Positions 33,312 to 42,849 of a DNA stretch of 64,000 bases are shown piece after piece. How positions within the stretch are numbered: position 1 is the first letter of the stretch; every line of letters starts with the position of its first letter. The stretch comes from Amorphoplanes friuliensis DSM 7358 (GTDB lineage Bacteria > Actinomycetota > Actinomycetes > Mycobacteriales > Micromonosporaceae). The notes beneath the pieces were generated by a model. That model worked only from the letters and a program-made list of their open reading frames with translations. It was not told where the DNA came from and did no database searches. The stretch covers positions 879,501 through 943,500 of the forward strand of contig NC_022657.1 in NCBI RefSeq assembly GCF_000494755.1, in the 5' to 3' direction. Made by a program: the position numbers and the translations under genes.

Positions 33312-35351
33312 GTGGACGAAACAGGGCATTCCGGGGACACCGGTGCGGCCGAGGGCGGCACTGGTGCTGAGTCGCGTGACCGCACCCTGCTGAACGGATG
33401 GGCCTCGCGTGAGAGCCCGTGGTCCAACGCGGGCTCCGCCCTGGACCCGGAGACCGAGGTCCCGGCCTGGCGCCGGCCCGGCACCGAGGTCCGGCCGTTC
33501 ACCCAGGAGAGGCCCCTTCCGACGGACACTCCTTCGGGGGAGATCCGGCCCTTCGCCACTCCACCGCCACCGCCGTCCTTCTCCCCGGCCAGCCCGGCCT
33601 CCACACCGCCGGCGCCGTCCGGCCCGCCGCGGACGGAGAACGCCGCGGCACCCCGCTGGTCCGACAGCCGGTCCCGCTATCAGGACCTGCTGTCCCACCT
33701 GTCACCCAACGGCAGCGAGCCCCGGCAGAACGAGCCGCCCCGCGCCGCGGAGCCTCCGCAGCCCGTACGCCCCGATCCGCTCTCGCCGGAGTTGCTGCGG
33801 CCGGACGCGCAGGACACCAGCGAGCTGCGCGCCGTCAACGGCAACCTGCCCGCCAGCGCCCCGCCGTACCCGTACGAGGGTGATCTCGACGATGTCCGGC
33901 GGGAGCCACCACGCCCGTCCGCCGGCCAGCAGCGTGCGGCTGTGCCCGCCGAGCGGCCGTTCCCGGCGGTGCGTCCCGCGACGCCCGGCGGACGCCGCGC
34001 CGACTGGGCGACCTCGGAGTCCGCACGGCACGCCCTCGACCCGCCGACACCCATGGAAGGCCTGCCCAGGGTGTCCAAGCCCGTGGCTACCGACCAGTCA
34101 CGTTCCGGCGATCAAGGCGTGAGCCGGCCGTCGTACGATCCCTCCAGCTTCCCCCGCCGGCTGCCGTACGAGAGCGCTGACACCCCTGCCGGTTACGCCC
34201 GCCCGGCCGGAGACCCCGGTGCCGCGGGCGCGGGGGAGCAGTCGTTCCCCGCGTTGCCGCAGCGCGTACCGGCCCAGCCGGACGTGCCCACCGTCCCGGA
34301 GCCGCCGTCCGTGGAGCCACCCGCCGAGACCCCCGCGCTGGCCCGCATCGCGACGCACCTGCGCCGCGATGACGTGCTGTCGTCGCAGGAGCGGCAGGAA
34401 GGGTTCGATGTGAACGCCATCCTGGAGGCCGTGCGTGAGGTCGAGGGGGTCCGCGACGCGTCGCTGCGGTCGACCCCGGCCGGGGCGCACAGCCTGCGGC
34501 TGGACCTCTCCGAGGGCGCCGACCCCGCCGAGGTGAGCCGCCAGGTCGCGCGGCTGCTGCAGGACAGGATGGGTCTGGACGCCGCGATGCAGGGCGCGAC
34601 CCCGCTGCCCGGCTCGCAGACGCCGGTCGCCGCACCACGGTCCGCCCCGCCCGCGCCGACACCGATGTCACCGCCGGCTCCGGCACCCCGGTCGGCCCCT
34701 CCGTCGTACGTTCCGCGGCCCCAGCAGGCTCCGCCGGCCGCGCAGGCGTCCGGGCCACCCGCTGCTCAGGCCTCCGCGCCGCCCGCGCCGCCCGCCCCGG
34801 CGGCGCCGTTCGTGCCGAGCCAGCCCAACCCGGCCGGCCGCGCGGCACCGGGTTATGCCACCGGCGCCACGTCCGGGTTCACCGAGTCGGTCCCGAGCAA
34901 CGTCGAGCCCGCGCCGCCGCGCCCGCTCGACCCGGGTGAGCGCCCCGGCCCGCGCGTGATGATCGAGAGCGTGCAGGTCAACACGTTCGGCACCGAGGCG
35001 ACCGTCGAGGTCCGGCTCACCGTCAACGGCCTGATCACCTCGGGGGAGGCGACCGGTCCCGCCGTCGACGGCTACCTGCTGCGGCTCTGCGCGATGGCCA
35101 CCGCCAGTGCGGTCGACGAGCTGCTCACCCACTCCGACCACGCCGACGGGCCCGCCAAGTGCTTCGTCGAGCACGCGGGTTCCGTACCGTTCGGATCCAT
35201 GCAGGTTGCTGTGGTTGTTTTGCTGCTGTCGGTCGGTGGCTGGGTCGAGCAGCTCTCCGGCTCCGCGGTGATCACCGGGGACGACCGCCAGGCCATGGTC
35301 CGCGCCACACTCGCCGCGATAAACCGCCGTCTTGAGGCACTGTTGTCCTGA
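33312..35351 (+). CDS. Large proline-rich protein with conserved C-terminal domain, function unknown
   Basis: 679 residues, not recognised. Residues 1-350 are a disordered Pro/Ala/Arg/Glu-rich stretch. A small folded domain (about 365-430, with G-F-D-V-N-A-I-L-E-A-V-R-E-V) follows, then a second Pro/Ala linker, and a final domain (about 555-679) with alternating strands (V-Q-V-N-T-F-G-T-E-A-T-V-E-V-R) and a Gly/Ala helix. The strand pattern faintly recalls the regulatory domain of LeuA-like enzymes, but that is weak. No signal peptide or membrane helix. The stop overlaps the hydrolase ATG (TGATG), so the two are co-translated. Confidence 0.72.
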   Translation: MDETGHSGDTGAAEGGTGAESRDRTLLNGWASRESPWSNAGSALDPETEVPAWRRPGTEVRPFTQERPLPTDTPSGEIRPFATPPPPPSFSPASPASTPPAPSGPPRTENAAAPRWSDSRSRYQDLLSHLSPNGSEPRQNEPPRAAEPPQPVRPDPLSPELLRPDAQDTSELRAVNGNLPASAPPYPYEGDLDDVRREPPRPSAGQQRAAVPAERPFPAVRPATPGGRRADWATSESARHALDPPTPMEGLPRVSKPVATDQSRSGDQGVSRPSYDPSSFPRRLPYESADTPAGYARPAGDPGAAGAGEQSFPALPQRVPAQPDVPTVPEPPSVEPPAETPALARIATHLRRDDVLSSQERQEGFDVNAILEAVREVEGVRDASLRSTPAGAHSLRLDLSEGADPAEVSRQVARLLQDRMGLDAAMQGATPLPGSQTPVAAPRSAPPAPTPMSPPAPAPRSAPPSYVPRPQQAPPAAQASGPPAAQASAPPAPPAPAAPFVPSQPNPAGRAAPGYATGATSGFTESVPSNVEPAPPRPLDPGERPGPRVMIESVQVNTFGTEATVEVRLTVNGLITSGEATGPAVDGYLLRLCAMATASAVDELLTHSDHADGPAKCFVEHAGSVPFGSMQVAVVVLLLSVGGWVEQLSGSAVITGDDRQAMVRATLAAINRRLEALLS

Positions 35352-36310
35352 TGAAGGGTGCAATCCTCGCGGCGGACGACGTCCTGCCGCCCGAAGGCGA
35401 CGGCCCGCCGCCGTGGCCCGCGCGTCGCGTCACGATCGACGGCGAGATGCTCCACATCCGTGACACCCCGGCGACAGCCCCGGGCGCCGAGCCGGCGGTC
35501 TTCGTGCACGGCCTCGGCGGCTCCTCGCAGAACTGGACGGACTTCGCCTCGCTGTTGTCCGACCGCTTCGACGCCCAGGCCGTCGACCTGCCCGGATTCG
35601 GCTACAGCGACCCCACCCGGCGCTACTCCATCCCGTCGTTCGCCGACAAACTCATCGGCTACCTCGAATACGCCGACCGCGGCCCGGTCCATCTCGTCGG
35701 CAACTCCCTCGGCGGTTCGATCTCGGTACGCGTGGCAGCGCTGCGCCCCGACCTGATCAAGACGCTCACGCTGATCTCGCCGGCCATGCCCTTCCTCGAC
35801 CCCCGGCGGACGGCCCAGGGCCCGATGCTGCCCCTGCTCGCTCTGCCCCGCGCCGAACGCCTCTTCGCGTGGGGCCTCGCCCGCCTCACCCCCGAGCAGA
35901 TGGCCGAGCAGGTGCTGCTGGCCTGCTTCGGCGACACCACCAAGGTCAGCCCGCAGCGCCGCGTCGAGGCCATCGAGGAGATCAAGCTCCGGCACACCGT
36001 CGCCCACTACCCCAAGGCCTACCTCGGTACGCTGCGCGGGCTCGTGTCCAGCTTCCTCCGGGCGTACCTGCCGGGGGTTAACTCGCAGTGGCGTCTGGCC
36101 GCCCGGATCACCGCGCCCACCCTGGTCATCGGCGGTCTGAAGGACGAGCTGGTCGACCCGCGCGTGCCCGCCCAGGTCGCCAAGGTCATCCCGGACAGCC
36201 GCCTGCTGATCCTCCCCGGCGTCGGCCACGTCGCCCAGATGGAAGTCCCCCGCCTGGTCGCGCGCGGGGTCGTCGGCATGCTCGAGGACGTCAACTCGCC
36301 GATCGGCTGA
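35351..36310 (+). CDS. Alpha/beta hydrolase
   Basis: 319 residues with the complete alpha/beta-hydrolase pattern: oxyanion H-G-L-G-G-S, nucleophile elbow G-N-S-L-G-G, an acid in the G-G-L-K-D-E-L-V-D region and the catalytic His of G-V-G-H-V-A-Q. It is an esterase, lipase or C-C hydrolase-like enzyme; specificity not readable. Translationally coupled to the proline-rich protein upstream. Mycobacteria carry a lipase-type hydrolase near the same conserved block (recalled, not checked). Confidence 0.88.
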   Translation: MKGAILAADDVLPPEGDGPPPWPARRVTIDGEMLHIRDTPATAPGAEPAVFVHGLGGSSQNWTDFASLLSDRFDAQAVDLPGFGYSDPTRRYSIPSFADKLIGYLEYADRGPVHLVGNSLGGSISVRVAALRPDLIKTLTLISPAMPFLDPRRTAQGPMLPLLALPRAERLFAWGLARLTPEQMAEQVLLACFGDTTKVSPQRRVEAIEEIKLRHTVAHYPKAYLGTLRGLVSSFLRAYLPGVNSQWRLAARITAPTLVIGGLKDELVDPRVPAQVAKVIPDSRLLILPGVGHVAQMEVPRLVARGVVGMLEDVNSPIG

Positions 36311-36387: not shown

Positions 36388-37257
36388 ATGATCCAGACCC
36401 GCATCCCGCTGAGGCCTGCCGCCGCGCCCGACAACGGACGCGAGCGGCTGCGCCGGTGGTGGATCGCGGCCCTGGTCATCGCCGTCCTGGCGATCGCGGG
36501 CGCGGCGCTCCTCCCGTCCTTCCTGCGGCCCGCAGCGGCGCCCGTCGCTGCACCGCCCTCAGCCTTGCCCTCTGTCTCGCCGTCGCCCTCTTTGTCGCCG
36601 TCGCCGTCACCTTCGGTTTCCGCCACCTCCGTCTCCGCGCCGCAGGATCTCCTGCTCCTCCCCGGCCGGGTGCCCACGCGCGGTTCGGGCAAGTTCGCGT
36701 ACGCGCCGGGCCGCGGCAAGGTGCTCGGCTCCAAAGGGCAGCTCAAACGCTTCCGCGTCGCGGTCGAACAGGGCAGCAACGAGGACGTGGCCGCCTTCGC
36801 CGCGCAGGTCGAGGCGACACTCGGCGACAAACGCAGCTGGATCGGCGACGGGCAACTCCGGCTGCAGCGTGTGCCCGGCAACGAGTCCGCGACCTTCACC
36901 GTGTACCTGGCGACCCGCGAAACCGCCGGCAAAATGTGCCGCCGCGGCGGAGTCAACATCACGGTCGCCGGCCGCCCGTACACGTCGTGCCGCGCCACCG
37001 GCCAGGCGATCATCAACCTCGACCGGTGGCGGCTGTCGTCCCGGCCGTACCTCACGGCGAAGATCCCCCTCGCGGTCTACCGCCAGTACGTCCTGAACCA
37101 CGAAGTCGGCCACGAACTCGGCCGCCACCACGAAGGCTGCCCCAAACGCGGCGGCCCGGCCCCGGTGATGGTCCAGCAGACCCTGACCCTGCGCGGTTGC
37201 GTCCCCTATGCGTGGCCCCGTCGGGGAAACCACCGTTTTGTGGGCCCAAGCCTCTGA
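36388..37257 (+). CDS. DUF3152 metzincin-like membrane-anchored protease (short paralogue)
   Basis: 289 residues. One membrane helix (about 27-48) is followed by a Ser/Pro-rich stalk and an extracellular DUF3152 domain (about 100-289). The zinc motif H-E-V-G-H-E-L-G-R-H-H (His238, His242, His248, Glu239) fits HExxHxxGxxH of metzincin-type peptidases, and P-V-M-V-Q-Q downstream can be a Met-turn. Cys pairs suggest disulfides outside the cell. Substrate unknown. A second, much longer paralogue follows about 100 bp downstream. Confidence 0.85.
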   Translation: MIQTRIPLRPAAAPDNGRERLRRWWIAALVIAVLAIAGAALLPSFLRPAAAPVAAPPSALPSVSPSPSLSPSPSPSVSATSVSAPQDLLLLPGRVPTRGSGKFAYAPGRGKVLGSKGQLKRFRVAVEQGSNEDVAAFAAQVEATLGDKRSWIGDGQLRLQRVPGNESATFTVYLATRETAGKMCRRGGVNITVAGRPYTSCRATGQAIINLDRWRLSSRPYLTAKIPLAVYRQYVLNHEVGHELGRHHEGCPKRGGPAPVMVQQTLTLRGCVPYAWPRRGNHRFVGPSL

Positions 37258-37335
37258 CCTGGCACCTCAACCGTTCGGTCGGCCTCCACCGTGGTTCTGA
37301 GGAGGTCTCGCGAAACGCCTGTGACGCCCGCCCGC

Positions 37336-37351
37336 CTCTGGCACTCTGGCG
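37336..37351 (+). repeat. Upstream motif shared by the two DUF3152 genes (copy 2)
   Basis: ctctggcactctggcg, the partner of the motif at 36368-36383 (14 of 16 bases equal). It ends 6 bp before the ATG at 37358; TATGTT follows directly before that ATG. Confidence 0.6.
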
Positions 37352-37357
37352 TATGTT

Positions 37358-40300
37358 ATGGCAAAAGCGACAAAAGGTTCCGCAGCTCCTCGGGCCGCCG
37401 CTGAGGACCTGCCCACCCGGGACCAGACGACGGCGACCGTCCGGCGCAACCCGCCACCCTCCGCGGGCAAACCGCCAGTCTCCGCACGCCGTAAGTCGGC
37501 CTCCGCGCCTGACCCGGCGGTTACCGCGCTCAACCCGGCGGCCTCTGCTTTCGGCCAGGCGGCGTCCGTCCTTGATCCGGCGGCCCCCGTGCTGGGCCCG
37601 GCGGCGTCCGTCCTTGATCCGGCGGCCTCTGCGCTCGGCCCGGCGGGCTCCGCGCGCAAGGCGGTAGCTGCGGGGCGCAACGCCCGTCGGCCGAGTGCCA
37701 CCGCAGCCGGCCGTGCCCAGAATGCATCCCCACTCAACCCCACGGGGACACCCGCCATGCCCGAATCACCTGACACCGCCGCACCCACGTCTGCTGCCTC
37801 GCCCGCGTCCACCGCCTTGCTTGCGTCAGGTGCTGCCGAGGCGAGTCCTGCTGCCCGCACGCGCCGGACCGCCGCCGCGGCAGGTGCCGAGCCGACGCCC
37901 ATCCGGCGCCGGAAGCCGGCCGCCGTCAAGGCCGCCGCAGCGCCCGCTGCCGAAGCTCCGAGTCCTGACGCTCTGGTTACCGAGGCCGCCAAGGCAGCGA
38001 CAAAGGTCGCAGGCCGGCCCCGCTCGCCGAAGGAACCGGAATCGCCGAAGCCGATCAGCGCGGCCCGGCCGGGCGCGAAGTCGGCCGGCCTGGCGTCCAA
38101 CCCCGAAACGTCCGGCGTGGCCGAGGTTTCGGGACCAGCCCTGCCCGCCGCGAAGCCAGCACGCCAGGCCAGGCCTGCGGCCGCGAAATCTGCCGATCCG
38201 GTCGTGCTCGCGACCGCGAAGTCATCCGACCCAGCGAGGTCTGCGGTCGCGAAGTCCGCTGGCCCGGCCAGGTCTGCGACCGCGAAGTCGGCTGGTTCGG
38301 CCAGGTCTGCGGCGACGAAGTCGGCTGGTCCGACGGGCTCGGCCGCGGTGTCTGACGTTGCGAAGTCGGCTGCAGCTTCGGGGATGACGTCGATCGGCTC
38401 GGTGAGGGCTGCTCGTGTGACCCGGTCGAGTCTGCCCGCCGAATCAACCGGGACCGGCGCGGGGACCCCCGCACGGGCGGTTGCGGCCAGGTCTACGCCG
38501 AACAAGTCCGCCGTGACTGAGCGAACGACGCCACCGGCGAAGTCGGCCCGGGCCGGTGCAGGGCCTGCCAAGTCAGCCGCCTCGGCTGGGCGGGCAGCCA
38601 CCAAAGCTGCTGCGACCAAGAGCACGGGGTCGAGCAGGTCGGCGACTGCGGGAGCTACCGCCGGCAGGACGACGGCTGGCTCGGCGGCATCGTCGGCGGC
38701 GGCGAAGGCTGCCCCCGTGAAGACCGCTGCCGGAACGCGGGCGCCTGCAAAGTCGGCTGCTGCCTCGGCTACCGGTGCGAAGCCGACGGCGGCGAAAGCC
38801 GCGACCACGAAGGTGGCAGGGACAACGGCCGCTCCCGGCAAAGCTGCCGCAGCGAAGGCTGTATCGGCCAAGACCCCGGCCACCAAGGCCACACCTGCCA
38901 AGACCGCGACGGCCAGGACCGCGACCACAAAGACTGCGACGGCAAAGGGCACGACGGTAAGGGCCGCGACGGCAAAGGCCGCGCCTGCGAAGACGGCCGC
39001 GACGAAAACCGCCACGACCGGAACCGCCACGACCGGAACCGCCACGACCGGAACCGCCACGACCGGAACCGCCACGACCGGAACCGCCACGACCGGAACC
39101 GCCGGGACCAAAACCGCCGGGACCAAAACCGCCGTCACCAAGGCGGCACCGACGAAGGCTGCGGCGGCAAAGGCAGCATCCGCAAAGACCACTGCGACGA
39201 AGGCAGCACCCGCGAAGGCAGCGCCCGCAAAGACCACAGCGGCCAAGGCAACCAGCGCTTCACCATCCAACGCTGCGCCTTCCAAAGCCGCGGCGGCGCA
39301 CTCTGCTCCCGCCAAAGCTGCGGCGACAAACGCTGCTCCCGCCAAAGCTGCGGCGACAAACGCTGGTCCTGCCAAAGCTGCGGCGACGAACGGTGGTTCT
39401 GCCAGGGCCGCGGCTACAAATGCCGCTCCTGCCAACGCGGCAACGACGAACGTCGGTTCTGCCAAGGCCGCCCCGGCGAACGCCGCGCCTTCCGACGCTG
39501 CGACGACAAACGCTGGTCTGGGCAAGGCGACCGTGACTAACGCCGCGTCTGCCAACGCGGCGGAGACAAACGTTGGTTCTGCCAAGGGCACCGCGACGAA
39601 TGCCGCTCCCACCAACGCGGCGGGGACGAACGTTGGGTCTGCCAAGCCCGCGGCGACGAATACTGGACCCGCCAAGGCTGCGGCGACGAATCCTGCGCCG
39701 GCCAGGACTGCCCCGACCAAGGCCGGCCCGGCCAAGGGTGCGCCCGACGCGGTTGCGCCGGCCACGGCCGTGTCCGCCGAGGGCGCGGGCTCGAAGGTTG
39801 CTCCGGCGAAGGCGCCGGCCAAGGCTGCACCCAGCAGGTCGGCAGTCGCCAAGCCCGATCAGCCGCCCGCCCCGAAGGCCGCGCGGACCACGGCGACATC
39901 CGCACAGGCCAAGGCGACGACGGCGCAGGGTCCCGCGACGGCGACAAACACCTCCACTGACGCGACACCAACAACATCGGACGATCCTGCAAAGGCAGCA
40001 ACTCCCGCAAAGCCTGCTGCGCCGACGTTCGCAAAAGCCACTTCCCCGAAAGCCGCTGCTGCCCCGACCGGGACCGCTGCGCACGACAGCACGGCAAGTC
40101 AGGCTGCTTCCGGCGGGGAACAGAGCGTCGGAGCCGCCACGCAGGAGCCGGCGGCAAAGCTCGACCCCGCGTTGAACACACCCAACCCCGAGCTCCGGGA
40201 CCCCGACGGAACAGCTCCCGGCGGCGGGCAGGCAACGGTCAAGCCGGAAACCCCGCCGAAGCGACCCCGCCGAACCCCGCCCAAGGACCCGAAACCGACA

Positions 40301-41554
40301 ACGTTCACCGCAGCCGGCGAAGCGGGTAGCGGAACGACGACTAAGCGCGCCGGCAAAGCAAAAGCGGAACCGGTGAATGTCGACTCGGCCATCGCCGCAG
40401 CGGCTGGTAGCGCCGACACCCAGGCCGCCTTCGGACGACCCGCAGCAGCCGAAACCGCCGAACTGGCCGAGATCGTCGAGGCAGCGAACCACCCCGGCAG
40501 CAGGTCAGGCGGGGTGGCCACAGCAGGAAACCGGCCCGCGGACAGCGACAGCGCCACCCTGCAACTGCCGGTCGTTCCGCGGATTCCGTCCGCGGAGCCG
40601 CCGCCCGCCGCCGGGCCGCCGATGATCATTCCGCCGCCGCTGGTGATGCCGCCGGATGCGGATGCTGTCATCGAGGGGGAGGCTTCCGACACCGTTGTGC
40701 TGGCGCCGCCCGCTACGCGGATGTACCAGAAGCGGCGTCGTGCGGCCGTCCTGGTTTTCCTGATTCTTGCGACCGCCGTCCTCGTGGTAGGCCAGATCAT
40801 GCGTAACGAAGGCAGTGACCAGTCGTCCCGGGTCGTGCCGGCGGCCTCCGTGCTGCCGCCGCTGGTGGGACCGGCGACCGGGGGAAACCTGGAGCCGACG
40901 TCCGCCGCGAGCACCGCGCCGGCCCGGCGTACGGCTCCCGCGGTGCCGCCGGACGCGGCTGACAAGGCGCCGACCAGGTCCACCCTGGCCGCGTCGAGTG
41001 GTGGGTTCGTGTTTGCCGGTGGGTACGGGCCGGTGCTCGGGTCGACGGGTACGTTGCGGCGTTTCAAGGTTGCTGTGGAGAAGACGCTGGGTCAGGGGAA
41101 CGGTGGGAAGTTCGCCGACGAGGTCGACCGGGTGCTGGGGGATCCGCGGAGCTGGATCGCCGGGCGGCAGTTCCGGTTGCAGCGGGTGCCGCAGTCGGCT
41201 GCCTCCGAGTTCACGATCTACCTGGCGTCGGCGAAGACGTCCGAGCGGATGTGCTCCGACGGCGGGTTGAAGACCAAGGGGTTCACCTCGTGCCGGCTGC
41301 CGGGGCAGGTGGTCATCAATCAGGACCGGTGGCAGGACGCCGTGCCGGACTACGACGCGCCGCTCGAGGTCTACCGGGCATACGCGATCAACCATGAGGT
41401 GGGGCACCAGCTCGGCCACGGTCACGAGGCTTGTGCCGGTAAGGGTGAGCCCGCGCCGGTCATGATGCAGCAGACTTACGGCCTCAAGGGGTGTGTGGCG
41501 AACTCCTGGCCGTACCTGGACGGGAAGCGCTACGCGGGCAACCCCATCGACTGA
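37358..41554 (+). CDS. Giant DUF3152 protein with histone-H1-like cytoplasmic tail
   Basis: 1,398 residues. Residues 1 to about 1,120 are Ala/Lys/Thr/Pro-rich and disordered, with A-A-K, K-A-A-P-A-K and K-T-A blocks like histone H1 or HupB-type tails, a T-A-T-T-G run (about 552-590) and 12-residue A-P-A-K-A-A-A-T-N repeats. One membrane helix (about 1,128-1,146) is preceded by K-R-R-R, placing the tail inside. Outside is a DUF3152 domain with H-E-V-G-H-Q-L-G-H-G-H (His1346, 1350, 1356) and P-V-M-M-Q-Q. The tail may bind nucleic acid; the outer domain probably cleaves or binds wall protein. Confidence 0.85.
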   Translation: MAKATKGSAAPRAAAEDLPTRDQTTATVRRNPPPSAGKPPVSARRKSASAPDPAVTALNPAASAFGQAASVLDPAAPVLGPAASVLDPAASALGPAGSARKAVAAGRNARRPSATAAGRAQNASPLNPTGTPAMPESPDTAAPTSAASPASTALLASGAAEASPAARTRRTAAAAGAEPTPIRRRKPAAVKAAAAPAAEAPSPDALVTEAAKAATKVAGRPRSPKEPESPKPISAARPGAKSAGLASNPETSGVAEVSGPALPAAKPARQARPAAAKSADPVVLATAKSSDPARSAVAKSAGPARSATAKSAGSARSAATKSAGPTGSAAVSDVAKSAAASGMTSIGSVRAARVTRSSLPAESTGTGAGTPARAVAARSTPNKSAVTERTTPPAKSARAGAGPAKSAASAGRAATKAAATKSTGSSRSATAGATAGRTTAGSAASSAAAKAAPVKTAAGTRAPAKSAAASATGAKPTAAKAATTKVAGTTAAPGKAAAAKAVSAKTPATKATPAKTATARTATTKTATAKGTTVRAATAKAAPAKTAATKTATTGTATTGTATTGTATTGTATTGTATTGTAGTKTAGTKTAVTKAAPTKAAAAKAASAKTTATKAAPAKAAPAKTTAAKATSASPSNAAPSKAAAAHSAPAKAAATNAAPAKAAATNAGPAKAAATNGGSARAAATNAAPANAATTNVGSAKAAPANAAPSDAATTNAGLGKATVTNAASANAAETNVGSAKGTATNAAPTNAAGTNVGSAKPAATNTGPAKAAATNPAPARTAPTKAGPAKGAPDAVAPATAVSAEGAGSKVAPAKAPAKAAPSRSAVAKPDQPPAPKAARTTATSAQAKATTAQGPATATNTSTDATPTTSDDPAKAATPAKPAAPTFAKATSPKAAAAPTGTAAHDSTASQAASGGEQSVGAATQEPAAKLDPALNTPNPELRDPDGTAPGGGQATVKPETPPKRPRRTPPKDPKPTTFTAAGEAGSGTTTKRAGKAKAEPVNVDSAIAAAAGSADTQAAFGRPAAAETAELAEIVEAANHPGSRSGGVATAGNRPADSDSATLQLPVVPRIPSAEPPPAAGPPMIIPPPLVMPPDADAVIEGEASDTVVLAPPATRMYQKRRRAAVLVFLILATAVLVVGQIMRNEGSDQSSRVVPAASVLPPLVGPATGGNLEPTSAASTAPARRTAPAVPPDAADKAPTRSTLAASSGGFVFAGGYGPVLGSTGTLRRFKVAVEKTLGQGNGGKFADEVDRVLGDPRSWIAGRQFRLQRVPQSAASEFTIYLASAKTSERMCSDGGLKTKGFTSCRLPGQVVINQDRWQDAVPDYDAPLEVYRAYAINHEVGHQLGHGHEACAGKGEPAPVMMQQTYGLKGCVANSWPYLDGKRYAGNPID
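39011..39130 (+). repeat. In-frame 15-bp coding minisatellite (TATTG repeats)
   Basis: Six perfect copies of gccacgaccggaacc (39011-39100) and two variant copies (39101-39130) inside the giant DUF3152 gene. As 15 is a multiple of three, gain or loss of units keeps frame and changes tail length. Longer 36-bp degenerate units follow at about 39290-39700. Confidence 0.85.
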
Positions 41555-41667
41555 CGGCTAATTCCCTCGTCCCGCATGTCGGGCCGGTGTTCCACGTCAT
41601 GTCCATTCCGGCGGGGAACGAGCAACAATGGGTGGCGCACCTTACCGCCGATCCCGGGGAGTTCACC

Positions 41668-42849
41668 GTGTCACTGCCCCCGCTCGTCGAGCCGGCCCCA
41701 GAGCTGAGCGTCGACGAGATCCGCCGCTATTCGCGTCACCTGATCATCCCCGACGTCGGGATGGACGGGCAGAAGCGGCTGAAGAACGCCAAGGTCCTGG
41801 CCGTCGGCGCGGGTGGTCTCGGCTCTCCCGCGCTGCTCTACCTGGCCGCGGCCGGTGTCGGCACGCTCGGCATCATCGACTTCGACACCGTCGACGAGTC
41901 CAACCTTCAGCGGCAGATCATCCACGGCATGTCCGACGTGGGCCGGCCCAAGGCCGAGTCCGCCGCCGACAGCATCCGGGAGATCAACCCGCTGGTGAAC
42001 GTGGTCATCCACAACACCGCGCTGGACCGTGACAACGTCAAGGACATCTTCAGCCAGTACGACCTGATCGTCGACGGCACCGACAACTTCGCGACCCGCT
42101 ACATGGTCAACGACGCTGCGGTGCTGCTCGGCAAGCCGTACGTGTGGGGTTCGATCTACCGCTTCGACGGCCAGGCGTCCGTCTTCTGGGAGGAGCACGG
42201 TCCCTGCTACCGCTGCCTCTACCCGGAGCCGCCGCCGCCCGGCATGGTTCCGTCCTGCGCCGAGGGTGGCGTCCTCGGTGTGCTCTGCGCGTCGATCGGC
42301 TCGATCCAGGTCAACGAGGCCATCAAGCTGATCACGGGCATCGGTGAGCCGCTGGTCGGCAAGCTGATGGTCTACGACGCGCTGGAGATGGAATACCGCA
42401 AGATCAAGGTTCGCAAGGACCCGAACTGCGCGCTCTGCGGCGAGAACCCGACGGTCACCGACCTGCTCGAGGACTACGACGACTTCTGCGGCGCGGTCTC
42501 CGAGGAGGCTCAGGAGGCGACGCTCAACGCCACGATCACGGCGCGTGAGCTCAAGGACTGGCAGGACTCCGGCAAGGACCTGTTCCTGGTCGACGTCCGC
42601 GAGCCCGCCGAGTTCGAGATCGTCAGCATCCCGGGTGCGACCCTGATCCCCAAGGGCGAGATCCTGTCCGGCGAGGCGCTCTCGCGCTTCCCGCAGGACC
42701 GGCAGATCGTGCTGCACTGCAAGTCGGGTGTGCGGTCGGCCGAGGCCCTCGCGGCGCTCAAGGCGGCCGGCTTCAAGGACGCCGTGCACGTCCAGGGTGG
42801 CGTGGTCTCCTGGGTCAACACCGTGGACCCGTCACTCCCGTCCTACTGA
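41668..42849 (+). CDS. moeZ: MoeZ adenylyltransferase/sulfurtransferase
   Basis: 393 residues. N-terminal ThiF/MoeB-like E1 domain: G-A-G-G-L-G-S-P nucleotide loop, S-N-L-Q-R-Q, paired zinc ligands C-Y-R-C and C-A-L-C and the active Cys in S-C-A-E-G-G-V-L-G. C-terminal rhodanese domain with C-K-S-G-V-R-S. It activates the C-terminus of sulfur-carrier proteins (MoaD, CysO type) and thiocarboxylates it for molybdopterin, cysteine or related synthesis. GTG 41668 gives the family start M-S-L-P-P-L-V-E-P and has GGGGAG 6 nt upstream. Confidence 0.96.
   Translation: MSLPPLVEPAPELSVDEIRRYSRHLIIPDVGMDGQKRLKNAKVLAVGAGGLGSPALLYLAAAGVGTLGIIDFDTVDESNLQRQIIHGMSDVGRPKAESAADSIREINPLVNVVIHNTALDRDNVKDIFSQYDLIVDGTDNFATRYMVNDAAVLLGKPYVWGSIYRFDGQASVFWEEHGPCYRCLYPEPPPPGMVPSCAEGGVLGVLCASIGSIQVNEAIKLITGIGEPLVGKLMVYDALEMEYRKIKVRKDPNCALCGENPTVTDLLEDYDDFCGAVSEEAQEATLNATITARELKDWQDSGKDLFLVDVREPAEFEIVSIPGATLIPKGEILSGEALSRFPQDRQIVLHCKSGVRSAEALAALKAAGFKDAVHVQGGVVSWVNTVDPSLPSY

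Follow-up and report, generated by a model that had tools for sequence, protein, structure and literature searches.

Why should a membrane-anchored protein with an enzyme-like outer domain carry more than a thousand residues of low-complexity chain at its N-terminus? The question is raised by a pair of adjacent genes in a 64,000-nucleotide stretch (the window) of the complete 9.38 Mb chromosome of Amorphoplanes friuliensis DSM 7358, which GTDB places in the genus Actinoplanes. The original prediction for this locus was that a histone-H1-like tail on the inner face could keep nucleoid DNA or RNA at the membrane, with a wall-sensing, protease-like domain on the outside. Here, we examine the two proteins, their relatives and the other lysine repeats of the host genome.

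A tandem pair of DUF3152 genes upstream of moeZ

Two DUF3152 paralogues, P1 and P2, lie in tandem between the genes for an alpha/beta hydrolase and MoeZ (Table 1). Both score far above the curated Pfam cut-off for DUF3152 (PF11350; 116.2 bits for P1 and 121.5 bits for P2, compared with 25.1 bits), and their ectodomains are 48% identical. Each contains the HExxHxxGxxH zinc signature of the metzincins in the form HEVGHxLGxxH, as expected from the side-by-side paralogues with such an outer domain that had been proposed. A third DUF3152 gene is found in the host genome away from the tandem pair. On the other side of the hydrolase gene, between it and a gene for a TetR regulator, lies a 679-residue Pro/Ala-rich open reading frame (33312–35351) with a folded-looking C-terminal part, for which a Pfam search gave no match.

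The P2 start itself is kept across the genus as MA[KN]AT[KN] (with an ATG codon and the residues MAKATKG in the window), and the approximately 50 bp immediately 5′ of it are kept at about 40 orthologous loci (L064–L112). This block shows neither a sigma-70 match nor a clear Shine–Dalgarno sequence, and may be considered a candidate promoter or operator of unknown type.

Table 1. Positions of the features of the DUF3152 locus in the window (aa, residues of P2 unless stated otherwise).
Feature	Coordinates	Strand	Basis
Upstream neighbour, alpha/beta hydrolase	35351..36310	+	Conserved synteny
P1, DUF3152 paralogue, 289 aa, with an N-terminal cytoplasmic segment of ~24 aa	36388..37257	+	ORF, motif, Pfam
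P1 membrane helix (approximate)	36457..36513	+	Hydropathy scan
P1 zinc-site motif, HEVGHELGRHH	37099..37131	+	
Conserved block abutting the P2 start: CGAAAnnCCTGTGAC ... TGGCAnnCTGGC ... TGTT/TTGCT-ATG	37306..37357	+	Genus-wide comparison
P2, long-tailed DUF3152 protein, 1398 aa	37358..41554	+	ORF, motif, Pfam
Tail, distal basic segment (aa 1-1002; net charge +86), opening with the conserved MAKATKG	37358..40363	+	Charge count
Block with Lys at every fifth residue, aa 431-660, resembling the host HU C-terminal tail	38648..39337	+	Repeat count
Tail, segment next to the membrane (aa 1003-1121; net charge -10)	40364..40720	+	Charge count
KRRR positive-inside cluster	40730..40741	+	Sequence, orthologues
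Single P2 membrane helix, aa 1129-1149	40742..40804	+	Sequence; AF2 confidence
P2 DUF3152 domain, aa 1212-1377, predicted metzincin-like fold	40991..41488	+	Pfam; AF2; Foldseek
P2 zinc-site motif, HEVGHQLGHGH, followed by a conserved Met (APVM) at ~41462	41393..41425	+	Homologue comparison
Downstream neighbour, MoeZ-type protein (ThiF+rhodanese; approximate start)	41578..42849	+	Conserved synteny

The outer domain is probably metzincin-like

The DUF3152 domain of P2 is modelled confidently by AF2 (pLDDT 90.8, pTM 0.88). The top Foldseek matches of this model are YbeY, matrix metalloproteases (MMPs), ADAMTS and snake venom metalloproteases, the best with an E-value of 0.016, and no PDB match was found at E ≤ 0.001. 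Profile comparisons with the PDB and Pfam likewise gave matches that all remain below threshold and that are mostly metzincins or other zinc HxxxH proteins, among them alkaline protease/serralysin, MMPs, snake venom metalloproteases, and the reprolysin and matrixin models. The HExGH motif, the third histidine and APVM are invariant among 43 homologues, and several cysteines are invariant or nearly so; in a MAG homologue (L148) the glycine of HxxG is missing.

DUF3152 shares with the matrixins, reprolysins and serralysins the HExxHxxGxxH motif, a conserved methionine further along and a weak similarity of profile and fold, whereas it scores below the thresholds of these families and has conserved cysteine and tryptophan positions of its own. 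Motif and model make a metzincin-like zinc enzyme of divergent type the best candidate for the outer domain. In P2 it would most likely act as a peptidase in the wall space, as judged from its motif and fold.

P2 is predicted to expose a long disordered tail to the cytoplasm

In P2, about 1,125 residues precede the KRRR cluster, which is followed by one hydrophobic helix and then by the outer domain. A KRRR or RRRRR cluster is present on the N-terminal side of the helix across orthologues, which is the positive-inside arrangement of a type II protein. P2 is accordingly predicted to be a single-pass membrane protein of type II (N-in/C-out) and, as some 1,125 residues lie N-terminal to KRRR and the single helix, its tail should be cytoplasmic. 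The inner tail of about 1,120 residues, the single membrane helix and the signals of the N-in orientation on which the original prediction was built are all recovered by this analysis.

The tail is composed of 31% Ala, 13% Thr, 11% Pro, 8% Ser, 7% Lys and 5% Arg. Because the charge–hydropathy test is indecisive for such Ala-rich tails, we used the AF2 confidence profile to assess disorder: pLDDT is below 50 for 1101 of the 1151 residues of tail plus helix, the confident part being the membrane helix only. By this prediction, the tail is intrinsically disordered.

Ala/Lys/Thr repeats had been described for the whole of this tail. The K-x4 spacing exceeds chance in the block of residues 431–660, which contains 19 K-x4-K pentads, compared with 1.7 expected in shuffled sequences (shuffle maximum 8), but the Lys repeats lie mainly in this region (residues ~430–660), where Lys reaches 12%, compared with only 7% for the full tail. 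At the DNA level the tail contains tandem repeats of 15, 30, 45, 60 and 90 bp, and the Lys block rests on the 15 bp units.

Tail length and lysine content vary at a syntenic locus

DUF3152 was found in all 151 sampled genomes of the family to which the host belongs and in 42 of 246 in the wider phylum. Its adjacency to moeZ recurs in Dactylosporangium and at two further actinobacterial loci. Within the genus, a P2-type orthologue is present in 48 of 61 genomes, and at ten loci checked P1 lies directly ahead of moeZ with P2 absent.

We collected 50 syntenic P2 loci, of which L095 and L088 (N runs) and L069 (contig end) were excluded from the tail counts. Among the 47 readable tails, 34 are long (312–1171 residues) and 13 are short, with an overall range of 20–1171 residues, so that most P2 orthologues do share the long tail, as the original prediction needed them to. 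The N-terminal segment of P1 is short at nearly all loci. It should be noted that stop-to-stop ORF length was not taken as tail length, since several of the very long ORFs inspected in other genera are read-throughs that extend upstream of a start which is short or of lipoprotein type.

Eight of the 34 readable long tails are Lys-rich (K ≥ 5%), namely those of the window and of L084–L087, L089, L092 and L096, and all eight belong to the subclade of the window; the remaining 26 contain 0–4.5% Lys. On the ectodomain tree, the deep forks of which are moderately supported, a minimum of two changes is required for the long or short state of the tail and one for the Lys-rich or Lys-poor state. Two of the excluded loci also carry lysine-rich tails. 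That of L088 (Actinoplanes sp. TFC3) is long and interrupted by an N run, and that of L095 (Mangrovihabitans endophyticus) contains true PAKKA repeats, clear runs of which occur in no other orthologue. The L095 tail can be taken for a very Arg-rich one, which is an artefact of its frame-shifting N run; the two proper frames give the PAKKA repeats. As the N runs shift the frame inside both tails, automatic annotation will misread both proteins.

Long tails share a basic-distal, acidic-proximal charge order

All 34 long tails are more basic in their distal than in their proximal half, with shuffle p-values of at most 0.03 in 32 of them. When both ends are trimmed, the distal half is still net basic in 34 of 34 and the proximal half is net acidic in 30 of 34. 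The most basic 200-residue stretch of the window tail has a net charge of +31. These 34 tails share ancestry and therefore do not amount to 34 independent tests. The same order is seen in DUF3152 proteins of Streptomyces type (a genus label inferred from sequence), whose N-in disordered tails of ~200–340 residues are unrelated in sequence and, as in P2, run from basic to acidic: the basic-distal order holds in all seven sampled, with p < 0.05 in six. As a rough control, low-hydrophobic N-tails of the host genome, drawn from 40 sampled 20 kb stretches, the window and three further stretches, show this order in ten of 19 cases, many of their starts being mis-called. The charge order is the clearest trait common to the long tails.

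The Streptomyces-type tails carry repeats of their own (VGRHSRRGPAPK... and DGTPAHGVPR). At loci L178–L184, the DUF3152 proteins begin with VGRHSR(R/K)G, and several of them have FPDGTPAHGVPR-type cytoplasmic-tail repeats in variable copy number.

Starting from the domains, topology signals, predicted disorder, charge order and coding constraint observed in P2, we infer catalysis, polyanion contact and positioning, and our preferred, tentative reading is that P2 is a type II ecto-enzyme, probably a zinc protease, whose cytoplasmic tail works as an electrostatic arm for positioning. The tail would lengthen and shorten by repeat slippage while its electrostatic plan remains fixed (a basic end, a more acidic stretch, KRRR and the helix). 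The basic far end may contact polyanions of the cytoplasm, be it the DNA of the nucleoid, RNA or ribosomes, and the proximal stretch, being acidic, may hold the arm off the anionic membrane; the most likely job of such an arm would be to place the outer enzyme or to gather it into clusters. DNA contact is plausible in the subclade of the window, since the basic end is built there of HU-type Lys pentads. Counting against a positioning arm are the low charge density of most tails, the short tails of 13 of the 47 orthologues and the lack of P2 in 13 of the 61 genomes.

Conserved modules and possible repeat slippage

A rather doubtful alternative is that the tail serves as a scaffold of docking motifs, with modules that bring in one particular partner from the cytoplasm, such as a polar or divisome scaffold, the charge and composition of the spacers being incidental. 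Indeed, three modules (MTRGI[LV]ELAAER[LV]AASR, GLPxSxRLPAELPDNLWPP and PDFLPSVL) are kept in a 26-member clade despite tails of 312–1171 residues and widely varying spacers, while the Lys-rich clade keeps VAEAYAAGKADAAA and PPMIIPPP, the former of which is also present in two 57-residue tails. There is also a precedent in Mycobacterium tuberculosis Rv3852, a membrane-anchored protein that binds Wag31 and combines PAKK repeats with a membrane helix at its C-terminus (PMC8233713). However, the modules are not alike between clades, no convincing second module-bearing protein was found in the three genomes searched, and docking leaves the charge order common with Streptomyces unexplained.

It is unlikely that the tail consists for the most part of neutral, low-complexity sequence, produced by slippage of GC-rich 15 bp repeats and tolerated as a disordered N-terminus that does no harm. 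Neutral expansion would account for the tandem repeats, for the 20–1171-residue range of the orthologue tails and for the short tails at no fewer than two places on the tree. It would also fit the dN/dS ratios between close pairs, which are higher for the tail (0.27–0.59) than for the domain (0.03–0.32) in every pair. Those same tail values nevertheless argue against it, together with the more than 1,000 codons kept in frame, the conserved start and modules and the charge order of 34 of 34 tails. Finally, antisense ORFs are also long in this GC-rich DNA, and we considered whether the tail might be a chance open frame. This was ruled out because the start and the modules are conserved, the dN/dS of the tail is below 1 and the frame survives over 312–1171 codons in the orthologues though indels are many.

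Lysine repeats and possible contact with DNA

The sole HU-type protein of the host has a tail of ~210 residues made of similar K-x4 Ala/Thr/Pro pentads, and the P2 block scores 388 against it in a Smith–Waterman alignment, compared with 282 ± 13 for shuffled sequences. Lysine repeats serve DNA binding in TopA, HupS/HupB and HbhA (PMC7398561, PMC10665949). P2 resembles the HU (HupB/HupS) tails and the TopA repeats in having such repeats, which in the host HU take the form of K-x4 pentads. The HU tail differs in being ~21% Lys, compared with 12% for the P2 block and 7% for the P2 tail, and in belonging to a soluble protein in which it is joined to a DNA-binding domain. An origin in the HU gene was considered for the P2 tail and not retained: the DNA identity of 67% over 298 bases is indecisive for low-complexity repeats.

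A triple-pentad DNA pattern occurs at four loci only in the genome, those of HU, of an HC2/H1-like protein, of an S11 carboxypeptidase and of P2. The H1-like protein (L231:4760-6352, at ~1.949 Mb) has 531 residues, consists almost entirely of Lys/Ala/Ser/Thr pentads and has a net charge of +110. The S11 enzyme (L232:5596-7020) is a secreted-looking D-Ala-D-Ala carboxypeptidase, with its Lys pentads right behind a signal-like segment. As the K-x4 repeat is thus present in an apparently exported enzyme, the repeat alone is no sign of DNA binding, and its value as a DNA-binding signature is weakened.

The HC2 profile (PF07382) gives 49 bits for the host H1-like protein and 20.5 bits for the host HU protein, and no match to the P2 tail even at E ≤ 10, which rules out an H1-like tail by profile in the window. 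The window tail contains no KK doublets and none of the PAKKA/AKKA doublet-Lys repeats that mark H1-like nucleoproteins. What stands of the histone-H1-like description is the K-x4 pattern shared with the host HU tail, the HC2 match and the KK doublets being absent. As a family-wide trait the description is not supported: the tails are Lys-rich in one subclade and one lineage, 13 orthologues are short-tailed, and P1 is short nearly everywhere.

Nucleoid tethering would be possible for the tails of the Lys-rich clade. In a broader version, to which we give only a small chance, P2 would be a tethered ecto-protease, the tail of which binds the nucleoid or other polyanions directly, so that the position of the chromosome would control the site of the protease on the wall side. 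This would be consistent with the basic-distal/acidic-proximal plan, its repetition in Streptomyces-type tails and the HU-type Lys pentad in the clade of the window. The strict form of the original prediction, in which the tail secures nucleoid DNA at the membrane under a wall-sensing protease-like domain and relays a signal, is quite improbable: the HU-like block, the PAKKA repeats of the Mangrovihabitans tail and the example of Rv3852, which shows that Lys repeats, a membrane anchor and DNA binding can go together in one protein (PMC4433263), speak for it, but the window tail is only 7% Lys, with neither KK nor an HC2 match, and Lys-rich tails are confined to one subclade and one lineage.

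Relation to known proteins and meaning of the tail

It had been stated that this layout has no described example, which is too strong, Rv3852 having been overlooked. A smaller membrane-anchored, histone-like Lys-repeat protein with demonstrated DNA binding is already known in Rv3852 (PMC8233713, PMC4433263). As described there, it is like P2 in that its Lys-rich repeats lie on one side and are followed towards the C-terminus by one membrane helix (membrane insertion being predicted for P2), and it differs in its PAKK repeats and DNA binding and in having no described outer enzyme domain. It shows no evident homology to P2. The outer domain of P2, on the other hand, is shared with DUF3152 proteins such as M. 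tuberculosis Rv3207c, and in our full-text literature search DUF3152 was named only through this protein, as a listed entry (PMC3726780). The second Actinoplanes copy differs from other DUF3152 proteins by tails of up to 1,171 residues, that of the window being rich in Lys/Ala/Thr pentads. As far as our searches reach in the literature, the new elements are the pairing of a Lys-repeat tail with a metzincin-like domain on the outside, tails of extreme and varying length at a single syntenic locus, and the charge order that these tails keep.

DUF3152 is widespread across the family of the host, yet it is without a known function. Should the tail act as a positioning arm, the inside of the cell would be connected with an enzyme on the outside by a disordered chain, the sequence of which is free to change while its charge order is fixed. 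The natural series of tail lengths at this one syntenic locus, from 20 to 1,171 residues, makes the idea of a positioning arm directly testable.
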